Shown: positions 17,008 to 27,881, numbered from the stretch's first letter. The stretch: 32,256 bases of DNA from an uncultured Rhodospirillales bacterium (GCA_903881515.1 CAIRTN010000341.1:1-32256), one strand, 5' to 3'. Numbers and translations are program-made. Notes: generated by a model not told the origin, from the letters alone.

Positions 17008-17865
17008 TTAGCGATACAGGTCCGGAGCAGGCTTTGGTTTGCGGGCTTTGGACTTCGGTTTCGGCGCTGCGGCGAGCAGATCCGTCATCGTGGCGCCACG
17101 GGTGCGCCAATAGGAGCTGAGGATGCCGACGTCCCAGCCGACGCAGAAATGCTTGACGCCCATTTCCAGATAGGGTGCGGCCTGGTCGGGTTCCTGGATT
17201 TCGATGCGCGGCTGGATGCCTTTTTTCAGCGCGGTCTCGATGGTCTTGAGTTCGGCTTTGCGGACGTCGGGATGCGCGCGGTTACCGGTCTGGCCGATCG
17301 ACATCGAGTAGTCGGAGCCGCCGAACTGGACCATGTCGATGCCGGGGACAGAGAGAATGGCGTCGAGGTCCTCGACCGCTTCGCGCTTCTCGATCATCAG
17401 CACGACAACCGCGTCGTCCAAGGCCTGGACGTAGGCCGGAGAGCCGCCTTCGCGGTTGGTGCCGACGTCGCGGCGCATGCCGACGCCGGTGAGGCCGAAA
17501 CCGCGGCGGTTGCCGGGGGTTTCCGCGCGAACGGCGGCGACGCAGGCCTTGGCATCGGCGACGGTGCGGACGTCAGCGAACAGCACTGACTGGAAGCCGG
17601 AGCCGATCGCCCGCATGGCCTGATGGGTGTATTCGCCCTGCTCGACCTTGATCATGCCGCCGATGCCGGCAAGCTCCAAGGCGCGGCCGAGGTTGTCGAG
17701 ATCGTGCAGGCTGAACGGGGCGTATTCCGCGGTGAACTCGACATAGTCGTAATGGCCACCGGCGGCGCCGATCAGTTCGACCAGGGTCGGCCAGGTGGAC
17801 AGGATATGGGTGCCGAGGCTGGGCAGGCCGGCATCGAGCTTCTGGCGCAGGCGGTTGGGGCGCAT
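17008..17865 (-). CDS. HpcH/HpaI aldolase/citrate lyase family protein with variant active site
   Basis: The 285-residue protein has the (beta/alpha)8 pyruvate-aldolase layout. SLGTHILSTWPTLVELIGAA opens the barrel, MIEKREAVEDLDAI holds the metal ligand E159, and GSDYSMSIG (183-191) the metal ligand D185. CVGWDVGIL closes it. The EH.P loop that normally carries the catalytic histidine of HpaI-type aldolases reads AEYAP (46-50), so the histidine is replaced by Tyr48. That suggests altered chemistry or substrate. The C-terminal 20 residues are a basic KPKSKARKPKP tail. The ATG at 17865 gives a family-like N terminus. The gene is divergent from the FAD oxidoreductase by 98 bp and ends 12 bp from tRNA-Ser. 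Confidence 0.85.
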   Translation of the reverse strand: MRPNRLRQKLDAGLPSLGTHILSTWPTLVELIGAAGGHYDYVEFTAEYAPFSLHDLDNLGRALELAGIGGMIKVEQGEYTHQAMRAIGSGFQSVLFADVRTVADAKACVAAVRAETPGNRRGFGLTGVGMRRDVGTNREGGSPAYVQALDDAVVVLMIEKREAVEDLDAILSVPGIDMVQFGGSDYSMSIGQTGNRAHPDVRKAELKTIETALKKGIQPRIEIQEPDQAAPYLEMGVKHFCVGWDVGILSSYWRTRGATMTDLLAAAPKPKSKARKPKPAPDLYR

Positions 17866-17878
17866 TTGTCGGGTTTCC

Positions 17879-17949
17879 CGTGACGTTTCTCGGCGGAGTG
17901 TTGTCCCGCGCGACGGTGGGGGCAAGGCTTTCGCGCCACGGCGTGACGT
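17879..17949. promoter_or_regulatory. Direct repeat CGTGACGT in the HpcH/FAD-oxidoreductase divergent region
   Basis: CGTGACGT occurs at 17879-17886 and again at 17942-17949, 63 bp apart start to start, which is close to six helical turns. Both lie in the 98 bp between two divergent genes. A regulator bound at both sites could loop the DNA, but no protein is identified and the 8-mer is short. Confidence 0.3.
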
Positions 17950-17963
17950 GGTTACAGTTGTGC

Positions 17964-19280
17964 ATGTCACACAGCGATCTGTTTCACCCTGACTTCAAGC
18001 CCGAACCTTACTGGTGGGAGGCCTATCGGCCGATCAGCGGTGCCCTGGTGGATTTGCCGCCAAGGGTCCGGGTGGCGATCGTGGGCGCGGGATATGCCGG
18101 GCTATCGACGGCGCTTGAATTGCACAAGCAGGGCGTCGAGGCGGTTGTGCTGGAAGCCAAGGAGCTTGGGCACGGCGCCAGCACGCGCAGCGGGGGCGCG
18201 GTGTCGGGCGGGGTGAACATCGGCAAGAGCTTCACCGGCAAAACGCTCGATGCGAACTCGCCGAAAGCCCACGGACTGCTGGCCGATGCAGCGGATGCGT
18301 TCAGCAATATCGAACGGCTGATCGGCGAGGAGGGGATCGACTGCGGCTGGGAGAAGAATGGGCGGTTCGTCGGCGCCTGGACCGCCAAGCACTATGCCAG
18401 CCAGACCGCGCGCGTGGCGAAGCTAAACGACGTGGCGCATTCGGGCGCCTACATGGTGCCGCGTGAGCGGCAGCGTGAGGAGATTGCCAGCGACTATTAT
18501 TGCGGAGGCATGGTGGTGGAGCGGGCCGCAAGCTTGCACCCGGCGCTTTACTACAAGGGTTTGCTGGATGCTGTGCGGCGGCGTGGCATTGCGGTCTGCG
18601 CCGAGGCGCCGGTGCTCGGCATTCGCGAGGAGAATGATGGCTGGCGGGTGCGTACGGCGCGGGGTGAGGTGTTGGCCGACGAGGTGGTGATCGCCACCAA
18701 TGGCTATACCGGAGACGTTACGCCGCAGTTGAAGCGACGGTTGATCCCGGTGGCGAGCCACATCATCGCCACCGAGGAATTGCCGGCCGATCTGGCCGCG
18801 ACGCTGATCCCGAAGACGCGCACGCTGTCAGATACGCGCCGTGTGTTGACCTATTACCGCATGTCACCCGACCACAAGCGGGTGATCTTCGGGGGGCGCG
18901 CACGGTTCACCCAGATTTCGCCGATCATCAGCGCGCCGATCCTGCATCAGTTCATGACCGAGCGCTTCCCGCAGCTCAAAGATGTCCGGATCACCCATGC
19001 CTGGACCGGCAACGTGGCGTTTACGCTCGATGCCGTGCCGCATATGGGGCAACAGGATCGGATGCATTACCTGCTAGGCTGCAACGGCAGCGGGGTAGCG
19101 ATGATGTCCTATCTGGGTGTGCAAACGGCACGCAAGATCGCCGGTGTGGCGAACTACACATGCCATTTCGACGCCGAAGAATTCCCGGATCATCCGCTGT
19201 ACAACGGCAATCCCTGGTTCCTGCCGGCGATCGGCTCCTGGTACCGGTTCCGCGACCGGCTTGACCGCGCGCTGGGTTAG
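17964..19280 (+). CDS. FAD-dependent oxidoreductase (DAO/OrdL-type)
   Basis: The 438-residue protein starts with the leader SHSDLFHPDFKPEPYWWEAY seen in gamma-glutamylputrescine-oxidase (PuuB/OrdL)-type enzymes. The FAD Rossmann motif VAIVGAGYAGLSTALEL (38-54) and the ribose-binding E64 (VVLEA) follow. GHGASTRSGGAVSGG (69-83) is the typical OrdL flavin segment, and TNGYTG and GCNGSGVAMMSYLG complete the DAO fold. Such enzymes oxidise amines or amino acids to imines with O2 or an electron carrier. The ATG at 17964 is chosen for this conserved N terminus; no strong ribosome site is seen. Its stop overlaps that of the convergent nitroreductase gene by 4 bp (TTAG). Confidence 0.9.
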   Translation: MSHSDLFHPDFKPEPYWWEAYRPISGALVDLPPRVRVAIVGAGYAGLSTALELHKQGVEAVVLEAKELGHGASTRSGGAVSGGVNIGKSFTGKTLDANSPKAHGLLADAADAFSNIERLIGEEGIDCGWEKNGRFVGAWTAKHYASQTARVAKLNDVAHSGAYMVPRERQREEIASDYYCGGMVVERAASLHPALYYKGLLDAVRRRGIAVCAEAPVLGIREENDGWRVRTARGEVLADEVVIATNGYTGDVTPQLKRRLIPVASHIIATEELPADLAATLIPKTRTLSDTRRVLTYYRMSPDHKRVIFGGRARFTQISPIISAPILHQFMTERFPQLKDVRITHAWTGNVAFTLDAVPHMGQQDRMHYLLGCNGSGVAMMSYLGVQTARKIAGVANYTCHFDAEEFPDHPLYNGNPWFLPAIGSWYRFRDRLDRALG

Positions 19281-20110
19281 CGCAGCGGGAAGCCGAGGCG
19301 TTCCAGGGTTGAGCGCAAGGTGTGGCGGCCGTTCATCGCCTTGATCTTACCCATGCGACGGATGACCCGGCGTGTCCAATCGTCAGCGGAAACCTCGTTG
19401 CGGCGGGAGAACGCGCCCATGCGCAGATCGTAGGCGTGACGCTCGGCGGTTTCGCCCGTGGTTGCGTAGGTCTCGTGATGCAGAACGATGGATTGCGGCA
19501 GGCGTGGTTTGACCTCGTTGGAGGTTGCTTCAGCGGCGTAGCCGATGCACAGACCGAATAGGCAGACCACGCCGTCGGGCAGGCCGAGCAGGCGGGAAAC
19601 GGTTTCCGGTTCGTTGCGCAGTGCGCCGATATAGACTGTGGACAGGCCCAGGGACTCGGCGGCGACCACGGCGTTCTGGGCCGCGAGGGCCGCGTCGATG
19701 GCGGCGACAAGAAATGCTTCAAGGTAGGGCGCCGCTTCCAGCGTCTCGCCTTCCTCGGCGGCAACACGCTGATTACGTGCGACGTCGGCGAGCCAGACCA
19801 GGAAGAGCGGGCACTGCTGGATATGCTTCTGGTCGTTGGCGATGCGTGCGAGTTCTGCTCGGGCGGCAGGGTTGTTGACGGAAAGCACCGACCAGGTCTG
19901 CATGTTCGACGAGGTGGCCGCGGACTGTGCAGTGGCCACCAAGGTTTCCAGGGTGCCCTCCGGCGGCGCGTCAGGGCGGTAGCCGCGCACCGAGCGGTGT
20001 GACAACAGCAGGGCGATGTGGTCGTTCCATGGGCCAGCGGCAGGAACTGCATCTGCGCCGTAGCGCAGCGCGAGTGCTTCCGTCTTTTGTTGGTTCGCAA
20101 CGTGATCCAT
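19277..20110 (-). CDS. NfsA/Frp-type nitroreductase or NADPH-flavin oxidoreductase
   Basis: The 277-residue protein belongs to the FMN-binding nitroreductase superfamily, in the NfsA/Frp branch. HRSVRGYRPD (38-47) and ATSSNMQTWSV (65-75) bind FMN. GLSTVYIGALRNEPETVSRL (154-173) and LFGLCIGY (184-191), followed by KPRLPQSIVLHHETY, correspond closely to the NfsA/Frp pattern. It is longer than E. coli NfsA (about 240). Frp-type enzymes supply FMNH2 to luciferases, so in this operon it may feed the NtaA-type monooxygenase two genes upstream. GGAG eight bases before the ATG at 20110 supports the start. It is the last gene of the three-gene operon. Confidence 0.9.
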   Translation of the reverse strand: MDHVANQQKTEALALRYGADAVPAAGPWNDHIALLLSHRSVRGYRPDAPPEGTLETLVATAQSAATSSNMQTWSVLSVNNPAARAELARIANDQKHIQQCPLFLVWLADVARNQRVAAEEGETLEAAPYLEAFLVAAIDAALAAQNAVVAAESLGLSTVYIGALRNEPETVSRLLGLPDGVVCLFGLCIGYAAEATSNEVKPRLPQSIVLHHETYATTGETAERHAYDLRMGAFSRRNEVSADDWTRRVIRRMGKIKAMNGRHTLRSTLERLGFPLR

Positions 20111-20124
20111 GGGTCGTCTCCGGT

Positions 20125-21606
20125 TCAGGCGTTGATCAGCCAGCGGGGCTTCCAACCGCCGCCGCCGTAGAGTCGGGTCTGCATATCCCCGTGATCGACC
20201 AGGCTCAGCCTGTCAATCCGCAGTTCGACGGCGCCCATGACGATGTCATGCAGTTTGGCCGCGTCGAGGCCGGGGTGGTCCTGCACGTAGGCGTTCACCC
20301 TGTGTCGGCCATCGGCGCCGGCGAGGATCTCGATCTGGTATGTGTCGCGGGCAATCAGGGTCTCGATGGCGGCACGCAGTTCGGTCAGATCGACGCGGGC
20401 GCCGCGGACCTTGATGAAGTCGGACTCCAGGCGGCGGAACGGGCCGAATAAGCGTGGGACCGTTAGGCCGCAGCCCGTGCACTCGTCCCATTTTGTTCCG
20501 CCCTCGATCAAGTCGCCGGACCAGTAGCGCAGGATCACTGTACCGTGCCAGTCGATATGGCTCCAGACCAGCACGCCGGGCGTTCCCGGCGCGGCGGGCA
20601 GGCGGGTTTCGGGGTCGATGACTTCGATGAAGAAGTGCTGCGGATCGACATGCAAGCCGGTGTTCTCGTCGCATTCGCGAAAGCCGCCGGATTTCAGTTC
20701 GGTGGAGCTCATGCCCTGCACGACACGCGCGCCGGGCGCACCGAGTTCAGCAAGGTTGCGGCGGATGGCCGATTCGTAGCCCTCGCTGAGGGCCTCGGCC
20801 GAGGCGGAGACCATCTCGATATGCGGCAGGCCATCGATGCGGCCGTCATGCAGCATCTTGCAGGCGGTATCGAGCCAGGCGACCAGATAGGAAGAGGTGC
20901 CGAAGAGGGCCTGCGTTTTCTCGCGATGCGCCACCAGCACCTGATTCTCCGTGCTGGTTACACGGCCGCCGAACATCGGACGCAGCGGTTGGCCGTTCAA
21001 CAGCGGCACGAGGAAATTGCCGTAGAAGCCGAGATGTTCACCTGCGGGCAGCAGGGACATGTAGCGCTGCGTCGGACTCCATGTGGAGAAATTGTGGTGA
21101 AACAGGCCGGCCCGGCGCAACGGGCCGTGGATATCCGATAGGGAGTAAGCCGATTGCGCGGCATTGCCGGTCGTGCCACCGGTACGCGTGGTGAGGATGG
21201 GCTGCCAGTCATTGAGGAACTCGCGCCAGACATAGTCGCCGGCGCGATCGGTTGGCTCGATATCGCCAGCGATCTCCGCTGCGGCTTGGGCGCTGGCCTT
21301 GTAGCGGGCGAGGTAGCTGGTGGAGATCTCCTCGACGTCGGGGTTCGCTGGCTTCCCTGGATAATTTGGGCTGAGGACGAAATCGGCGAAGTGCGACCGC
21401 AATTCCTCCTTCGAGGTAAAGGGGACATGGGCGGCAAAGTCCGCCTCGGATGCGATGGCGTCCAGGTCGACCTGCAAGGCAGCGAACTTGCGGCGGTAGA
21501 ACGGGGAATAGCGCGCGACATCATCAATGAGGAAACGGCGGAGGCGGGCGAAGGATTCGTCACGTTGTACCTGGGACTCTATACCGCGGCAGCGTAACGC
21601 GCTCAT
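20125..21606 (-). CDS. PaaK-like phenylacetate-CoA ligase family protein (adenylate-forming)
   Basis: The 493-residue protein resembles the short, C-terminal-domain-compact PaaK branch of adenylate-forming enzymes. RRFLIDDVARYSPFYRRKF (about 23-41) is the classic PaaK opening, VPFTSKEELR (61-70) follows, and the P-loop is RTGGTTGNAAQS (141-152). VQGMSSTE is the adenine-binding region, RYWSGDLIEGG the ribose-binding Asp motif, and RRLESDFIKVRGARV the hinge. It should form an acyl-AMP or acyl-CoA from an aromatic or other carboxylate. The start overlaps the monooxygenase stop by ATGA. It sits between monooxygenase and flavin-reductase genes, which is unusual. The substrate is unknown. Confidence 0.85.
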   Translation of the reverse strand: MSALRCRGIESQVQRDESFARLRRFLIDDVARYSPFYRRKFAALQVDLDAIASEADFAAHVPFTSKEELRSHFADFVLSPNYPGKPANPDVEEISTSYLARYKASAQAAAEIAGDIEPTDRAGDYVWREFLNDWQPILTTRTGGTTGNAAQSAYSLSDIHGPLRRAGLFHHNFSTWSPTQRYMSLLPAGEHLGFYGNFLVPLLNGQPLRPMFGGRVTSTENQVLVAHREKTQALFGTSSYLVAWLDTACKMLHDGRIDGLPHIEMVSASAEALSEGYESAIRRNLAELGAPGARVVQGMSSTELKSGGFRECDENTGLHVDPQHFFIEVIDPETRLPAAPGTPGVLVWSHIDWHGTVILRYWSGDLIEGGTKWDECTGCGLTVPRLFGPFRRLESDFIKVRGARVDLTELRAAIETLIARDTYQIEILAGADGRHRVNAYVQDHPGLDAAKLHDIVMGAVELRIDRLSLVDHGDMQTRLYGGGGWKPRWLINA

Positions 21607-22946
21607 CGGGCGTACCGGCTGGCAGGGCGGTTAAGGCCCATGTGTCCGCGCAAGGTTGTGGCGCTGTAGGCGCTGCGCATAAGACCACGGCGCTGCAATT
21701 CGGGCACCACCATGGTGGCAAAATCATCGAAGCCGCCGGGCAGATACGAGGCCTGGATGATGAAGCCGTCGGAGGCCTCGGTCGCCACCCATTCCTCCAT
21801 GACATCGGCGATATCCGTCGGCGTGCCGACAACAGAGTAGGAGCCGCGGGTGCCCGCATAGCGTTCATAGAGTTGTTTCAACGTCAGGTTTTCCCGCCGA
21901 GCCATTTCGGCCATCGCCTTCAGGCGGCTTCGGCTGACATTGGTGGTTACCGGCACGCGATCCTCCGGCAGGATCTCGTTGATATCCAGCCCGGACAGAT
22001 CGGCGCCCCCCAGTTCCACACTTAGCAGTTCGCGCCCCACATCGGGATGAACCAGGGACTGCATCTGTTCGAACTTGTCTTGGGCCTCCGCGCGCGTGCG
22101 GCCGACGGTGGGATTTAGACCAGCCATCATTTTGATGTCATCAGGCGTGCGGCCGAACTTTCCGGTCCGGCACTTCACATTGGCATAGAAGGCGCGTGCG
22201 CCCTCAATGCGCGACTGAGAGAAGAAGATCACCTCGCCTGTCTCTGCGCCAAGGTCCATGCCATCTTCCGAGGCTCCGGCCTGCGCGATCACCGGGTAGC
22301 CCTGCGGCGGACGCGCGAGATTGATCGGGCCACGCACAGTGTAGAATTGGCCCTTATGGTCGAGGCGATGCACCGCGTCGGGGTGAAAATAGCGCCCGCT
22401 GACACGGTCACGCAGGAAGGCGTCATCGTCCCAACTGTCCCATAATCCCTTCACCACGGCAACGAACTCGCGCGCGCGGGCGTAGCGCTCCTCGACATCG
22501 TAATGCGCCTCTCGGCCGAAGTTGAAACTTGCGGACGGGTTGGCCGTGGTCACGACGTTCCAGCCGGCGCGACCGCCGCTGATGTGATCAAGCGAGCCGA
22601 ACAGGCGAGCGACGTTGAATGGCTCATAGTAACTGGTGGATGCGGTACAGACCAAGCCAATGTGGCGTGTGACCGCCGCAGTCGCTGACATCAGGGTGAT
22701 CGGCTCGAAATGCGCCATGTATTGCGGCCAGCGGCTCAGCGCATCCATGTTGCCGTCGCGCGTCGCCACCGCGTCAGCCATGAACACGAAATCGAAACAG
22801 GCGCGCTCGGCGCTCTGCGCCAGTTTCATGAAATATGAGACGTTCTGGCCGGCGTCGATTTGCGCGTCAGGATGCAGCCAGGCGGCGACGTGCTGGCCCA
22901 TCGATGGAAAATGCGCGCCAAGATGGATCTGCTTTACGTCTCGCAT
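21603..22946 (-). CDS. NtaA/SnaA/DszA-type FMN-dependent monooxygenase
   Basis: The 447-residue protein has the length and signatures of the NtaA group within the LLM class. QNVSYFMKLAQSAERACFDF opens the barrel, and GGRAGWNVVTTANPSASFNFG (124-144) is the group hallmark. DHKGQFYTVRGPINLARPPQ and VIAQAGASEDGMDLGAETGE lie in the middle, and SVVGTPTDIADVMEEW near the end. Known members oxidise nitrilotriacetate, EDTA or dibenzothiophene sulfone, using FMNH2 from a partner reductase. GGGGGAGGG six to eight bases before the ATG at 22946 is a strong ribosome site. It is the first gene of an operon with PaaK-like and Frp-like genes, behind a predicted IclR-type operator and promoter. Confidence 0.92.
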   Translation of the reverse strand: MRDVKQIHLGAHFPSMGQHVAAWLHPDAQIDAGQNVSYFMKLAQSAERACFDFVFMADAVATRDGNMDALSRWPQYMAHFEPITLMSATAAVTRHIGLVCTASTSYYEPFNVARLFGSLDHISGGRAGWNVVTTANPSASFNFGREAHYDVEERYARAREFVAVVKGLWDSWDDDAFLRDRVSGRYFHPDAVHRLDHKGQFYTVRGPINLARPPQGYPVIAQAGASEDGMDLGAETGEVIFFSQSRIEGARAFYANVKCRTGKFGRTPDDIKMMAGLNPTVGRTRAEAQDKFEQMQSLVHPDVGRELLSVELGGADLSGLDINEILPEDRVPVTTNVSRSRLKAMAEMARRENLTLKQLYERYAGTRGSYSVVGTPTDIADVMEEWVATEASDGFIIQASYLPGGFDDFATMVVPELQRRGLMRSAYSATTLRGHMGLNRPASRYAR

Positions 22947-22987
22947 GAATGCCCTCCCCCATGCCGCCTGATGGGCGGTCTACGGCG

Positions 22988-23017
22988 AAACTAGAAACCG
23001 GAGATGGGAACTGTCGA
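22988..23017 (-). promoter_or_regulatory. Predicted promoter of the monooxygenase operon
   Basis: On the leftward strand TCGACA (23017-23012) matches the -35 consensus at five of six positions. Eighteen bases later TAGTTT (22993-22988) serves as a weak -10. The promoter lies 41 bases before the monooxygenase ATG and 8 bp downstream of the predicted operator at 23026-23040. The same layout occurs before tctC. Confidence 0.5.
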
Positions 23018-23025
23018 GGGCGGGC

Positions 23026-23040
23026 GTCCATAATGTGGAT
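23026..23040. promoter_or_regulatory. Predicted IclR-type operator upstream of the monooxygenase operon
   Basis: GTCCATAATGTGGAT is an interrupted palindrome (GTCCA-N5-TGGAT, four of five arm positions symmetric) with an AT-rich core. It matches the arms of the site at 23918-23932 in the iclR-tctC intergenic region and sits 8 bp from the predicted -35 box, as that one does. An overlapping ATAATGTG direct repeat extends it to 23046. Confidence 0.55.
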
Positions 23041-23102
23041 AATGTGATTTAGGTAGGGCCGGGAGCGTTGGATGCCAGCGGCATAGCCTTCCAGATCCTG
23101 CG

Positions 23103-23882
23103 CTAGGCCAAAGACTCCAGCAGTCGCGGCTCAATGGTTGCGAGCTCTGTCTGCAGGATGGACAGCACTTCCGCCTGATGCTGGGGGGTCATGCGGGGTG
23201 TTGGCGCGGTGACGCTGAGGGCACCGATGGGGGCACCAGCGAGGTCACGCAATGGAATGGCGAGTCCACAAAGGCCAGGTTGGCCGTAGCCACGGCTGAT
23301 TGCGTATCCGCGTGCACGAAATTTCTGCAGGCTGGGCAACAATCTGTCCGCCCGAACATTGTGTTCCCGCAGGCGGCGGATGTTCTCGCTGAGGAAGGTT
23401 TGGATCCTGTCGCAGCTCATCTCCATGAGAATAGCGAGGCCGCCCGCGCCGACGCCGAGGGGACGGCGCATCCCGGGGCGCAGAGGTGTGGCGCGGGCAG
23501 GGGATTGCGCATCGCGGGCATCGAGAACCAAGCCGTCATCGCCATCCAGCGTGATCAGAAAGACAGCATCGTTGCTGCGGGCGGCAATCCTGTTCAGCGC
23601 AGGTGCACAGATTTCACGCAGTTCGAAACGTGGAGCGGCGGATTGACCGAGGCTGTAGAGGATCCTGCCAAGGAAGAAGCGCTTTGTGCGTGCATCGCGG
23701 CCGACAAGGCCTTCGACCTGCAGGCAGGCCAGGATCCGATGCAATGTCGGGCGTTCAATCGGCAGCGCGCGCGCGAGTTCGGCGATCGTGACGCCACGAG
23801 TCGCGGCACGGCCGATTTCGTGCAGGATATTGGCGGCGCGCCGGATTGCCTGGGTGCCAGCGGGGGGCGCGGTTTGGCTCAT
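23103..23882 (-). CDS. IclR-family transcriptional regulator
   Basis: The 259-residue protein has the IclR two-domain plan. An N-terminal winged helix-turn-helix (about 12-72) contains AANILHEIGRA, VTIAELARALPIERPTLHRILACLQVEGLV and a basic wing. A helical linker follows, then the effector-binding domain with LRPGMRRPLGVGAGGLAIL, ISRGYGQPGLCGLAIPLRD and APIGALSVTAPTPRM. IclR proteins bind small carboxylates or aromatic acids and act as activator or repressor. It lies between two operons that carry the same predicted operator and shares its upstream region with tctC, so it probably senses the transported substrate. No clear ribosome site precedes the ATG at 23882, so the messenger may be poorly translated or leaderless. 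Confidence 0.92.
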   Translation of the reverse strand: MSQTAPPAGTQAIRRAANILHEIGRAATRGVTIAELARALPIERPTLHRILACLQVEGLVGRDARTKRFFLGRILYSLGQSAAPRFELREICAPALNRIAARSNDAVFLITLDGDDGLVLDARDAQSPARATPLRPGMRRPLGVGAGGLAILMEMSCDRIQTFLSENIRRLREHNVRADRLLPSLQKFRARGYAISRGYGQPGLCGLAIPLRDLAGAPIGALSVTAPTPRMTPQHQAEVLSILQTELATIEPRLLESLA

Positions 23883-23917
23883 GGGCCATGATGTAGGGGT
23901 GTTGGCGGCGGCATCAA

Positions 23918-23932
23918 GTCCAATATATGGAC
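23918..23932. promoter_or_regulatory. Predicted IclR-type operator in the iclR-tctC intergenic region
   Basis: GTCCAATATATGGAC has perfect 5 bp inverted arms around an AT core. It lies 35 bp before the iclR start and 8 bp upstream of a predicted -35 box for tctC. On the leftward strand its core reads TATATT, which could double as the iclR -10 box, so binding could repress iclR while activating tctC. Both effects are inference. Confidence 0.6.
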
Positions 23933-23940
23933 AGTGCGCG

Positions 23941-23970
23941 TTGACGGTGACGGCCGCGCGCCCCTAGATT
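23941..23970 (+). promoter_or_regulatory. Predicted promoter of the tctC operon
   Basis: TTGACG (23941-23946) matches the -35 consensus at five of six positions, and TAGATT (23965-23970) serves as -10 after an 18-base spacer. A leader of about 100 bases would follow, containing a small CCCG-AAA-CGGG hairpin at 24003-24013. Confidence 0.5.
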
Positions 23971-24076
23971 TCCCAGGCGCAATCTGCCAGGTGGACGATA
24001 ATCCCGAAACGGGAGGCCGGTTGGCGGATGCACAAAATTCCGGCGGTTGACCGAAGGACGATTGGGGGGATTACCG

Positions 24077-25069
24077 ATGAAATTCTGGTCTCGGCGGACC
24101 GGCCTGTTAGGCGCGGCATGCGCGGCGGTCCTGACCATTGCTGGCGGGGTTCATGCGCAGCCAACGTACCCCTCGCAACCCATTCGTATCATTGTTGGCT
24201 ATGCCCCTGGCGGGAATACCGACATCCCCGCGCGATTGTTCTCCACCGTGATGGCAAAAAATCTCGGCGTTTCCATCGTGGTGGAGAACCGACCCGGTGC
24301 GAGCGGGGTGCCGGCGGCAGAGTTCGTGAAACGGGCGAAGCCCGATGGCTATACCCTGCTGTGGGCGACATCTGCGAGCCATAGCGTTTCAGTCGTTGCG
24401 ATGGCGCCGCTGCCGTACGATCCGGTGAAGGATTTCGCGCCGATCACCCTGATCAGTCAGGACCCGAACGTTTTGGTTTCCGGCCCGGACATCAAGGCGG
24501 AGGGGGTACAACAGATATTGGAGTATCTTAAGGCGCATCCCCGTTCGCCGGTCGGCAATTCCGGACCGGCGACATCGGGGCGGTTCGCGATGGAGCTGAT
24601 GAAGCCGAAGCTGGGGGTGGAAACGGTTCCGGTCCCTTACAAATCCACCGGGCCGCTGCTGACCGATCTGGCGGGCAATCAGATTCCGTTCGGGATCATG
24701 GGGGCATCGACCGCAGTGCCGTTCCTCAAAGATAAGCGGATCAAGGCATATTTCGTCACCAGCCTGACACGCTCGCGGATCTTACCGGATGTGCCGACGT
24801 TGAACGAGACGGTTTCGCCAGGGTTCGACGCAGTGGCGTGGAGTGCGCTTTATGCGCCGCCAGGGACGCCCGCTCCAGTGGTGGCGAAGATCAACGCGGC
24901 GATGCGCGAGGCGGCGCAAGCGCCGGAAGTTAAGCAGTGGCTGGAACAGTCAGGGCTGGAAGTGCCGTTGGGCACGCCGGAGCAATTGGTTGCATTCATG
25001 CAGACCGACATTGCGCGTTGGGTGTCTGTGGCGAAGGACAACAATCTCAAGTTCAATGCCGGCGAGTGA
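24077..25069 (+). CDS. tctC: Tripartite tricarboxylate transporter substrate-binding protein (Bug/TctC family)
   Basis: The 330-residue protein has a signal peptide of about 27 residues (VHA then QP). The Bug-family N terminus YPSQPIRIIVGYAPGGNTD (31-49) follows. VVENRPGASG, GYTLLWATSASHSV and the C-terminal VAWSALYAPPGTPAPVVAKI are further family marks. Such receptors bind a dicarboxylate or aromatic carboxylate in the periplasm and pass it to TctA-TctB. GGGGGGA before the ATG at 24077 supports the start over longer forms. It is the first gene of tctC-racemase-tctB-tctA and is preceded by a predicted IclR site. The ligand is unknown. Confidence 0.93.
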   Translation: MKFWSRRTGLLGAACAAVLTIAGGVHAQPTYPSQPIRIIVGYAPGGNTDIPARLFSTVMAKNLGVSIVVENRPGASGVPAAEFVKRAKPDGYTLLWATSASHSVSVVAMAPLPYDPVKDFAPITLISQDPNVLVSGPDIKAEGVQQILEYLKAHPRSPVGNSGPATSGRFAMELMKPKLGVETVPVPYKSTGPLLTDLAGNQIPFGIMGASTAVPFLKDKRIKAYFVTSLTRSRILPDVPTLNETVSPGFDAVAWSALYAPPGTPAPVVAKINAAMREAAQAPEVKQWLEQSGLEVPLGTPEQLVAFMQTDIARWVSVAKDNNLKFNAGE

Positions 25070-25919
25070 ACGACAGGCCGCCGGCCACTTGAGGATCTGG
25101 CACCAGAGTTTCACCACGCTGGCTGATGTGCCGGCCTACCGCGATGCGCTGCATGCGCGCATCGCGAAGGTCGTGCGACCGGGTACCGAGGTCGTTCTGC
25201 ATGGGCAGATTCCGGGAACGTATTCGACGAATTATCCCGGTGGAGACCTTGGGTTCAGCGCATTGTTTGCGCTGCACGGGTTGCAGTGGATCGCTGCGGC
25301 GCGGGAGGCGGAACGACAGGGTTTCGACGCGATGATCTGCGCGACGATGTCGAACCCGCTGATCGAGGAACTGCGCACGCTGGTGGATATCCCGGTGATT
25401 GGCTACGGCGAGACGGTGCTGACGCTGTCCCGGCTGTATGGGCGCCGGTTCGGCATGCTGTGCTTCATTGCCGGGCGTGCGGGGTTCTGGCCCGAGAAGC
25501 TGCGGGAATGGGGATTTGCTGACCGGTTCGTGGGTGTACGCGGCCTGGGTATAGGCTTTGATGCGGTCATCGGGGGACTGCAGGACGAGGCGGCACGCAC
25601 CGGTGTGGTTGCGGCGGTGCGCGAAGCAGGCGAGGCGCTGGTGCGCGAGACGGGGGCAGATGTGATTGTGCCGTCGGAAATGCCACTGAACCTGCTGCTG
25701 GCTTTGGCCGGGGTGCACGAGATCGGTGGCGCCACTGTGATGGATGGGCTGGCGAGCGTGCTGAAGATGGCCGAGATGCAGGCCGACCTGCGGCTTCTGT
25801 CGGGAATGCAGCCCAGCTGCAACGGGTTCTTCCATGCGCGGCCGCAGCGGGCACGCGTGGATGAGGTAATGCGATTCTACGGATTGGACGGCCTCGGTGG
25901 CCGGATCCAGGCGGATTGA
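25056..25919 (+). CDS. Asp/Glu/hydantoin racemase superfamily protein with a single active-site cysteine
   Basis: The 287-residue protein follows the hydantoin-racemase-like pattern. GFDAMICATMSNPLIEELRT (89-108) supplies the first catalytic cysteine, C95. DIPVIGYGETVLTLSRLYGRRFGML is the typical middle. The second site, normally a C-containing GADVIVLGC-type strand, reads GADVIVPSEMP (200-210), so the second cysteine is missing. One-cysteine relatives include arylmalonate decarboxylase, although there the other cysteine is the one kept. The enzyme may be an isomerase, decarboxylase or non-racemising relative. The ATG at 25056 overlaps the end of tctC by 14 bp. Its place between tctC and tctB suggests it acts on the imported acid. 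Confidence 0.8.
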   Translation: MPASERQAAGHLRIWHQSFTTLADVPAYRDALHARIAKVVRPGTEVVLHGQIPGTYSTNYPGGDLGFSALFALHGLQWIAAAREAERQGFDAMICATMSNPLIEELRTLVDIPVIGYGETVLTLSRLYGRRFGMLCFIAGRAGFWPEKLREWGFADRFVGVRGLGIGFDAVIGGLQDEAARTGVVAAVREAGEALVRETGADVIVPSEMPLNLLLALAGVHEIGGATVMDGLASVLKMAEMQADLRLLSGMQPSCNGFFHARPQRARVDEVMRFYGLDGLGGRIQAD

Positions 25920-25920
25920 A

Positions 25921-26370
25921 ATGCGGCAAGATCTGATTTCCGGGCTTGTGCTGTCGGCGATCGGTGCCGGGGCGGTGCTGGAGGGCCGGCGACATCATAT
26001 CGGCACGCTGCGCGAGATGCAGGCGGGGTATTTCCCGGTCGCACTCGGCACGTTGATGGTGATGATCGGGCTGCTGATGGCGGGCCTGGCGGTGCTGGGG
26101 CGCGACAGTGGCGAGGCGCATGTGGCGCATAAGCCGGATTGGCACGGAACTAGTGCCATCGTTGCGGGTGTAGTGTGCTTCATCGCGCTGGGGGCCTGGT
26201 TCGGCCTGGCGCCGGCGACGTTTTCCTGCGTGCTGATTTCGGCGCTGGGCGACCGGGCTGCGACCTGGCGTGGTGCGCTGGGGCTGGCGGTGGTGCTGAC
26301 GGTCGCCGCGGTTTTGGTGTTCGCCTATCTTCTGCAAGTGCCGTTTCCGATCTGGCAGTGGCCCGCATGA
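25921..26370 (+). CDS. tctB: Tripartite tricarboxylate transporter small permease subunit TctB
   Basis: The 149-residue protein has about four hydrophobic segments (near 8-26, 42-64, 84-104 and 120-142). The short GYFPVALGTLMVMIGLLM segment after the first helix is typical of TctB. It pairs with TctA in the inner membrane as the small subunit of the sodium- or proton-driven carboxylate importer. The ATG at 25921 is one base after the racemase TGA. Its stop overlaps the tctA start by ATGA. Confidence 0.88.
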   Translation: MRQDLISGLVLSAIGAGAVLEGRRHHIGTLREMQAGYFPVALGTLMVMIGLLMAGLAVLGRDSGEAHVAHKPDWHGTSAIVAGVVCFIALGAWFGLAPATFSCVLISALGDRAATWRGALGLAVVLTVAAVLVFAYLLQVPFPIWQWPA

Positions 26371-27881
26371 TCGGCACCGCGCTGACCGATCTTGGCCTGG
26401 GATTCGAGGTCGCATTTCAGCAGAACAATTTGCTGTTCTGTTTCCTGGGCGTGCTGTTCGGCAACATCGTTGGTGTGCTGCCAGGCATGGGGGTGATGGC
26501 GGCGATTTCGGTGCTGCTGCCGTTGACGTTTGCAATGAAGCCGGTTGCCGCGATCCTGATGCTGGCGGGGATTTATTACGGGGCGCAGTACGGTGGCGCG
26601 ATCTGTTCGATCCTGCTCAACCTTCCCTGTCACCCTCCGCACGCAGTGACCTGCCTGGACGGCTATCCGCTTACGCTGCAGGGCCGTGGCGCGAGCGCGC
26701 TGGGGATAACGATGCTGTCTTCGTTCGTGGGGGCATCGTTCGGCATTACCGAGATGATCTTTTTCGCGCCTGTGCTGGTGGAGGTGGCGTTCAAATTCGG
26801 GCCTGCGGATATCTGTTCGCTGATGCTGCTGGGATTGCTCGCGGGATCGACGTTGGCGAAAAGCGCGCCATTGAAGGGCGTGGGGATGACGGTGCTGGGC
26901 CTGCTGCTGGGGCTGGCGGGAACAGATGTGAATACCGGGGAAACGCGCTTCACCTTCGGTTTCGTCGAACTCACTGACGGGGTGGAGATTGTTGCTCTTG
27001 CGCTCGGGCTGTTCGGCATCGCCGAGTTCCTGAAGAGCGTGAACAATGTGCTGCCAATCTCCGCGACGGGAACGGTGGTACGCCTGCGCGACATGGTGCC
27101 GCGGCGCGATGAACTGCGCCGCGCGTTCCCGGCGATGATCCGTGGCACGTTGATTGGCAGCATGTGCGCGCTGATCCCCGGCACGGGGCCAACTATTGCA
27201 TCCTTCGTGGCCTATGCTGCGGAAAAGAAGATTTCACGTAATCCGGAGAAGTTCGGGCACGGTGCGATCGAGGGGGTGGCAGCACCGGAGGCCTCGACGC
27301 ACTCATCGGTGCAGGGCGATTTCATCCCGACGATGAGCCTGGGAATACCGGGCGATTCGGTGATGGCGCTGATCCTGGGGGCGCTGGTGATTCAGGGCAT
27401 CCAGCCGGGGCCGCAGTTGATCCGCGAGCATCCGGATCTGTTTTGGGGGCTGATCGCGAGCTTCTGGATCGGCAATGTGCTGCTGCTGATCCTCAATGTT
27501 CCGCTCATAGGGATCTGGGTGAAGCTGCTGAAAATTCCGTATCGGTTCCTGTACCCGAGCGCGCTGTTCTTCATCTGCATCGGCGTCTACAGCACAACCA
27601 ATGACCTCTTTACGGTCGGGGAGGCTCTGGCAATCGGGATCGGCGGGTATGGGTTACTGCAGCTCGGGTTTCACCCGGCACCAATTCTGCTGGGCTTCGT
27701 GTTGGGACCCCGGTTGGAAGAGAATTTTCGCCGCGCGATGCTGATATCGGGCGGCAAGCTTTCGGTGTTTGTCGAGCGTCCGATCAGCGCGACGTTCCTG
27801 GGTTTGGCCGCACTGCTGCTGATTGTCCAGGTGGTGCTGCGGATCAGGTTGGGGCGCACCGCCGGGCTGCAGGACGACTAG
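26367..27881 (+). CDS. tctA: Tripartite tricarboxylate transporter large permease subunit TctA
   Basis: The 504-residue polytopic protein has about twelve membrane segments. GNIVGVLPGMGVMAAISVLLPLTF begins at residue 32, and the second-half repeat GTLIGSMCALIPGTGPTIASFVAYAAEKK shows the duplicated TctA fold. MSLGIPGDSVMALILGAL is the conserved re-entrant region. The first-half counterpart normally reads N-x-PG near an aDGYP motif; here it is NLPCHPPHAVTCLDGYP (85-101), with Cys in place of Gly. That may tune substrate choice. The stop overlaps the convergent dppB-like stop by 4 bp (CTAG). Confidence 0.93.
   Translation: MIGTALTDLGLGFEVAFQQNNLLFCFLGVLFGNIVGVLPGMGVMAAISVLLPLTFAMKPVAAILMLAGIYYGAQYGGAICSILLNLPCHPPHAVTCLDGYPLTLQGRGASALGITMLSSFVGASFGITEMIFFAPVLVEVAFKFGPADICSLMLLGLLAGSTLAKSAPLKGVGMTVLGLLLGLAGTDVNTGETRFTFGFVELTDGVEIVALALGLFGIAEFLKSVNNVLPISATGTVVRLRDMVPRRDELRRAFPAMIRGTLIGSMCALIPGTGPTIASFVAYAAEKKISRNPEKFGHGAIEGVAAPEASTHSSVQGDFIPTMSLGIPGDSVMALILGALVIQGIQPGPQLIREHPDLFWGLIASFWIGNVLLLILNVPLIGIWVKLLKIPYRFLYPSALFFICIGVYSTTNDLFTVGEALAIGIGGYGLLQLGFHPAPILLGFVLGPRLEENFRRAMLISGGKLSVFVERPISATFLGLAALLLIVQVVLRIRLGRTAGLQDD

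Follow-up and report, generated by a model that had tools for sequence, protein, structure and literature searches.

A conserved monooxygenase and PaaK-fold ligase gene pair with a possible role in carboxylate catabolism

The gene for an NtaA-group monooxygenase and the gene for a PaaK-fold ligase overlap in seven genomes of at least two genera, and together they are a conserved but rare unit. The pair was analysed in a window of 32,256 nucleotides that represents one whole contig (C341) from the draft genome of an uncultured Rhodospirillales bacterium (4.94 Mb, 477 contigs, about 90% complete). A first-pass annotation of the window had described three minus-strand ORFs encoding a monooxygenase, a PaaK-like ligase and a nitroreductase. 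The ORFs and the family names were confirmed by TIGR03860, by the PaaK fold and by PF00881, respectively. It had also pointed out an ATGA overlap joining the monooxygenase and ligase genes. This 4-nt overlap lies at positions 21603-21606 and is present in all six relatives that we found, giving seven loci in total.

The monooxygenase-ligase pair and its surroundings

The ligase served as query against genome samples at the levels of family (n = 200), genus (one other genome only) and class, and against the GTDB contig collection. Besides the window's own genome, three of the 200 family genomes had ligase relatives (67-68%), all of them belonging to one other genus, and the one other genome of the genus sample was without the ligase. 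The GTDB contig scan added three more bins with ligase relatives; it was keyed on short exact peptides, so distant or divergent relatives of the pair would be missed. Close ligase relatives (67-68%) were thus found only in six metagenome bins, labelled Acetobacteraceae or Rhodospirillales; in the genome set, three of these bins are placed in the same family as the window. All six bins carry the overlapping monooxygenase gene (orthologs at 68-71%) and a divergent TctC ortholog. In one of these sister genomes (G399, L026 13903-17664), a benzoate-CoA-ligase-family gene, an enoyl-CoA hydratase gene and an SDR gene are located near the pair and perhaps constitute an aromatic-acid cluster.

Table 1 Features of the operon and of the neighbouring genes, in coordinates of the window
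Feature	Coordinates	Strand	Evidence and remarks
NfsA/NfrA/Frp-group nitroreductase, 277 aa	19277..20110	-	PF00881; nearest PDB NfrA1, NfsA, Frp
PaaK-fold adenylate-forming acyl-CoA ligase, 493 aa	20125..21606	-	profile match and predicted fold
NtaA/DmoA-family FMN-dependent monooxygenase (LLM superfamily), 447 aa	21603..22946	-	TIGR03860, PF00296
IclR-family regulator	23103..23882	-	IclR_C, HTH_IclR
TctC-type solute receptor, divergent	24047..25069	+	PF03401; ortholog beside the pair in sister loci (66-73%)
Asp/Glu-racemase-superfamily protein	25062..25919	+	PF01177
Small protein in TctB position	25897..26370	+	between receptor and TctA; no NCBIfam match
TctA membrane subunit, tripartite transporter	26370..27881	+	PF01970, 475 bits

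The first gene of the operon is predicted to encode an FMNH2-dependent monooxygenase of the NtaA/DmoA family. Its product matched TIGR03860 over residues 10-435 with 540.4 bits (cut-off 279.7), that is, over its full length, and its relatives in the PDB include 7e36, 3sdo, YtnJ/MoxC and DszA. None of the closest homologs examined beyond the sister group (52-60%) was accompanied by the ligase or the nitroreductase, and several of them adjoin ABC transporter genes. Likewise, no ligase was found in the regions read around the monooxygenase's closest homologs on plasmids and in the family. The window contains a further LLM-superfamily gene (PF00296) at 1653-2783, some 17 kb away from the operon's nearer end.

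The ligase scored 29.7 against the AMP-binding Pfam family, just under the cut-off of 29.9. A profile built from its homologs, on the other hand, found PaaK structures with an E value of 4e-24 (4r1l). A structure predicted from a deeper alignment (pLDDT 78), which replaced a poorer first model (pLDDT 53), showed the PaaK fold along most of the chain, with Z scores of 30.2 to PaaK1 (2y27, 406 residues aligned) and 29.6 to 2-hydroxyisobutyryl-CoA ligase. The C-terminal lysine K486 is invariant in an alignment of 21 rows and, by analogy with the family, may function in adenylation. The score against the PaaK equivalog TIGR02155 was 57.2 bits for a cut-off of 646.3, far short of what identifies a phenylacetate-CoA ligase PaaK proper. 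Among the matches listed, the plasmid homologs of the ligase were below 30% identity. Relatives at 34% in betaproteobacteria adjoin genes that we named by eye as a branched-chain-type solute-binding protein, a quinone-oxidoreductase-like protein and a BKACE-like protein, and similarity search revealed no monooxygenase in these loci.

Upstream of the operon, the IclR-family gene is likely its regulator, judging from its position. In the Asp/Glu-racemase-superfamily protein, a threonine was aligned to what is presumably the first catalytic cysteine of hydantoin racemases, and the residues VPSEMP were found where we expected the second cysteine. By eye, a paralog encoded on another contig of the same genome (C45) and a relative from the sister genus look alike at both places. 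Such residues at the expected cysteine places suggest that the protein is probably not a racemase. Third-position G+C is 0.70-0.80 across 17008-27881, compared with 0.82-0.88 in the genes to the left, so this stretch may have been acquired horizontally.

The aldolase-like gene and its OB-fold partner

In all six sister loci, a thiolase-like gene is located directly behind the ligase gene. The copies are 93-95% to the reference copy, one of them (L032) ending at a contig edge, and the ligase and thiolase-like genes again share an ATGA overlap in the five loci checked. A small DUF35/OB-fold gene comes next in the sister loci that were read for it. In the window, the gene behind the ligase is a different one, the nitroreductase gene. 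The window genome has its orthologs of the two genes, thiolase-like (73%) and OB (60%), on contig C45, apart from the pair, and there the thiolase-like gene directly follows the gene for the paralog (52%) of the window's racemase-like protein.

The thiolase-like proteins have a YDCF motif and a glycine at the position of the nucleophilic cysteine of thiolases, which is the YDC[YF]/Gly signature of Sal-type aldolases. The bile-acid side-chain aldolase CtSal has YDCY and a glycine at the cysteine position, and a Trypanosoma homolog has YDCF (PMC12329534). The OB partner is a DUF35/ChsH2-type protein, with both the OB domain (PF01796) and the zinc ribbon (PF12172) of ChsH2 in the sister genome and PF01796 only in the window genome (L068 9560-9955). 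In three plasmids of other bacteria, aldolase homologs (41-43%) are encoded with MaoC-type, enoyl-CoA hydratase, acyl-CoA dehydrogenase and CoA-activating genes, as expected of an aldolase acting on CoA esters; beside the monooxygenase-ligase pair, no MaoC-type hydratase was noticed. An Alphaproteobacterium of another family (L141 4000-13400) has an aldolase/OB pair (56%/46%) accompanied by an LLM protein of the F420 type and by a CoA ligase of an ordinary kind. Since the latter two belong to other subfamilies, this locus lends weak support to the module.

These neighbours also bear on the function of the ligase. The ligase model also has structural neighbours among the PaaK-family AMP-ligases, for example NatL2 and ClxA (Z about 27), and the enzyme could accordingly be pictured as an acyl-AMP ligase that serves biosynthesis instead of a catabolic CoA ligase. 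However, PaaK1, BT_0428 and 2-hydroxyisobutyryl-CoA ligase outscore the AMP-ligases (Z about 30), the linked aldolase-like and OB genes and the TctC receptors point to catabolism, and no biosynthetic genes were recognised near the ligase. We therefore give a biosynthetic role very little credence and retain the reading as a CoA ligase.

The nitroreductase and the supply of reduced flavin

The most likely start of the nitroreductase is the ATG at 20110 rather than the TTG at 20155; a GGAG precedes this ATG, and 14 bases separate it from the stop of the ligase gene. The protein scored 186.2 bits against the NfsA equivalog PRK10765, below the cut-off of 223. Its PF00881 domain and an arginine equivalent to R203, kept in nearly all the aligned orthologs, place it in the wider NfsA/Frp group. 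R203 of NfsA is tied to NADPH binding (PMC8286842). FMN is not a substrate of Escherichia coli NfsA, although the single change E99G makes it one (PMC8286842); membership in the NfsA group thus does not imply FMN reduction. The window protein has a glutamate at residue 131, a position that we read as aligned with E99 of NfsA. As FRP is also named with a glutamate at position 99 (PMC8286842), the sequence does not decide whether this nitroreductase reduces FMN.

The nitroreductase gene was found in 112 of the 200 family genomes, in varied contexts. It is next to the pair at none of the six sister loci, three of these genomes carrying a copy on other contigs. A common gene of the family that occurs in varied places and is absent from the sister loci looks like a lineage-specific addition behind the ligase. 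The first-pass annotation had suggested looking for conserved co-occurrence of the three gene families in other genomes, and the family, genus and class samples and the GTDB contigs gave only the pair. Within these collections the trio is restricted to one strain, an outcome that the annotation itself had named as refuting its proposal. Of the 31 loci with nitroreductase orthologs, five have a monooxygenase gene at a distance of up to about 5 kb, and in one it is the immediate neighbour. We did not take this as a signal of general linkage because monooxygenases are many in the family; in many of the genomes concerned, 10 to 50 candidates loosely match the monooxygenase. A TctC-type receptor gene is directly upstream of the nitroreductase ortholog in nine of the 31 loci (L088, L090, L093, L095, L096 and L098-L101).

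NtaA-group monooxygenases depend on a reductase of some kind for reduced FMN. In the scan of the genes around the operon, no linked NtaB-type (PF01613) flavin reductase was recognised, and the locus does not have the two-component NtaA/NtaB arrangement. The earlier statement that such a reductase is missing holds for the locus but not for the genome, whose sole PF01613 match is on contig C354. Two PF03358 proteins and a second NfsA-type enzyme are further candidates for flavin reduction elsewhere in the draft genome. With these candidates available, a dedicated FMNH2 donor need not exist.

How the nitroreductase relates to the pair can be read in several ways. The proposal of a self-contained oxygenase cassette, in which the nitroreductase is the dedicated FMN reductase of the monooxygenase, draws on the position of the gene closely behind the ligase on the same strand, on the conserved Frp-group motifs and R203-aligned arginine of its product, and on genome G484 (L079), where the genes for TctC, for another NtaA-like monooxygenase (31%) and for a nitroreductase ortholog stand in a row on one strand. 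This proposal was not borne out by the comparison. The gene is missing at this place in every sister locus, it is widespread with a monooxygenase only occasionally nearby, the genome has other candidate reductases, and NfsA itself does not use FMN as a substrate; we consider a dedicated reductase unlikely. It is less probable still that the enzyme acts on or detoxifies a pathway intermediate with a quinone, nitro or unsaturated group. The Rut pathway offers a precedent, in that the nitroreductase-superfamily enzyme RutE is encoded next to the LLM enzyme RutA in one operon. The window protein, however, has only a very weak match to the RutE family (22 bits, cut-off 152), and the sister loci lack the nitroreductase, which argues against such a function even though NfsA-type enzymes reduce quinones and nitro groups (PMC8286842).

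The gene might finally be a chance neighbour that is not expressed with the pair, as its own ribosome-binding site, the lack of overlap with the ligase gene and its occurrence in many contexts would allow. The 14 bp between the two genes, which are on the same strand, leave no room for a promoter, and we regard this explanation as highly improbable. The nitroreductase may rather be an optional flavin or electron donor.

Proposed pathway and comparison with known systems

Taken together, the genes lean, at slightly better than an even chance, toward a module of carboxylate catabolism that combines TctABC uptake, an FMN monooxygenase, a PaaK-fold CoA ligase and retro-aldol cleavage, and of which the nitroreductase is not a fixed part. 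We infer the order of the steps, the nature of the substrate and the coupling of a reductase as follows. The TctABC system would import a carboxylate substrate. The NtaA-type monooxygenase, with reduced FMN and O2, would oxidise the free acid by hydroxylation or by cleavage of a C-N or C-S bond, and the PaaK-fold ligase would then convert the acid to a CoA thioester. The first-pass annotation had considered activation before oxidation as well as the reverse, and the order given here is tentative. A thiolase-like aldolase of the Sal type, together with its DUF35/OB partner, would split the CoA ester by retro-aldol chemistry; the genes for this step adjoin the pair in the sister genomes, and the window genome carries them on a different contig. 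The nitroreductase, added behind the ligase in the window lineage, may supply FMNH2. The separation of the aldolase-like gene from the pair in the window genome counts against the module, and so does the finding that no MaoC-type hydratase was noticed near the pair.

A more specific version, to which we assign only a slim chance, is a route in which the monooxygenase installs a hydroxyl group, CoA ligation follows and Sal-type retro-aldol cleavage completes the sequence, oxygenation thereby standing in for the dehydrogenase and the hydratase of beta-oxidation. If the module is real, metagenome-assembled Acetobacteraceae possess a small catabolic unit of monooxygenase, CoA ligase, aldolase and OB partner, and testable roles can be predicted for one enzyme of the NtaA group and for a Sal-like aldolase that is not part of steroid degradation. 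The case also illustrates that gene order in a single genome can suggest a partner, here the nitroreductase, for which comparison gives no support.

In a limited search of the open-access literature, we found no described pathway with the monooxygenase-ligase pair; the first-pass annotation knew of no characterised pathway with the trio. Each component nevertheless resembles a known system. The monooxygenase is a full-length member of the family of NtaA, EmoA, DmoA, DszA and CmoJ/MoxC (TIGR03860), but its overlapping partner is a PaaK-fold ligase, whereas NtaA systems have an NtaB-type flavin reductase. The ligase is folded like PaaK phenylacetate-CoA ligases and 2-hydroxyisobutyryl-CoA ligase (HCL) over most of its chain, although it is only about 20% identical to them in structural alignments. 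The nitroreductase shares the conserved motifs and the R203-equivalent arginine of NfsA/NfrA/Frp reductases; unlike NfsA, it lacks the R208/R209 pair, and 28 residues precede its aligned domain. The linked thiolase-like protein shares YDCF, the absence of the nucleophilic cysteine and an adjacent OB/DUF35 gene with the Sal/Ltp2 retro-aldolases and their DUF35 partners of steroid side-chain degradation. Here, in contrast, the OB partner is encoded by a small gene of its own, without a zinc-ribbon match in the window-genome copy, and in the sister loci these genes adjoin a monooxygenase-ligase pair. The kinds of enzyme are known, and their arrangement is new.
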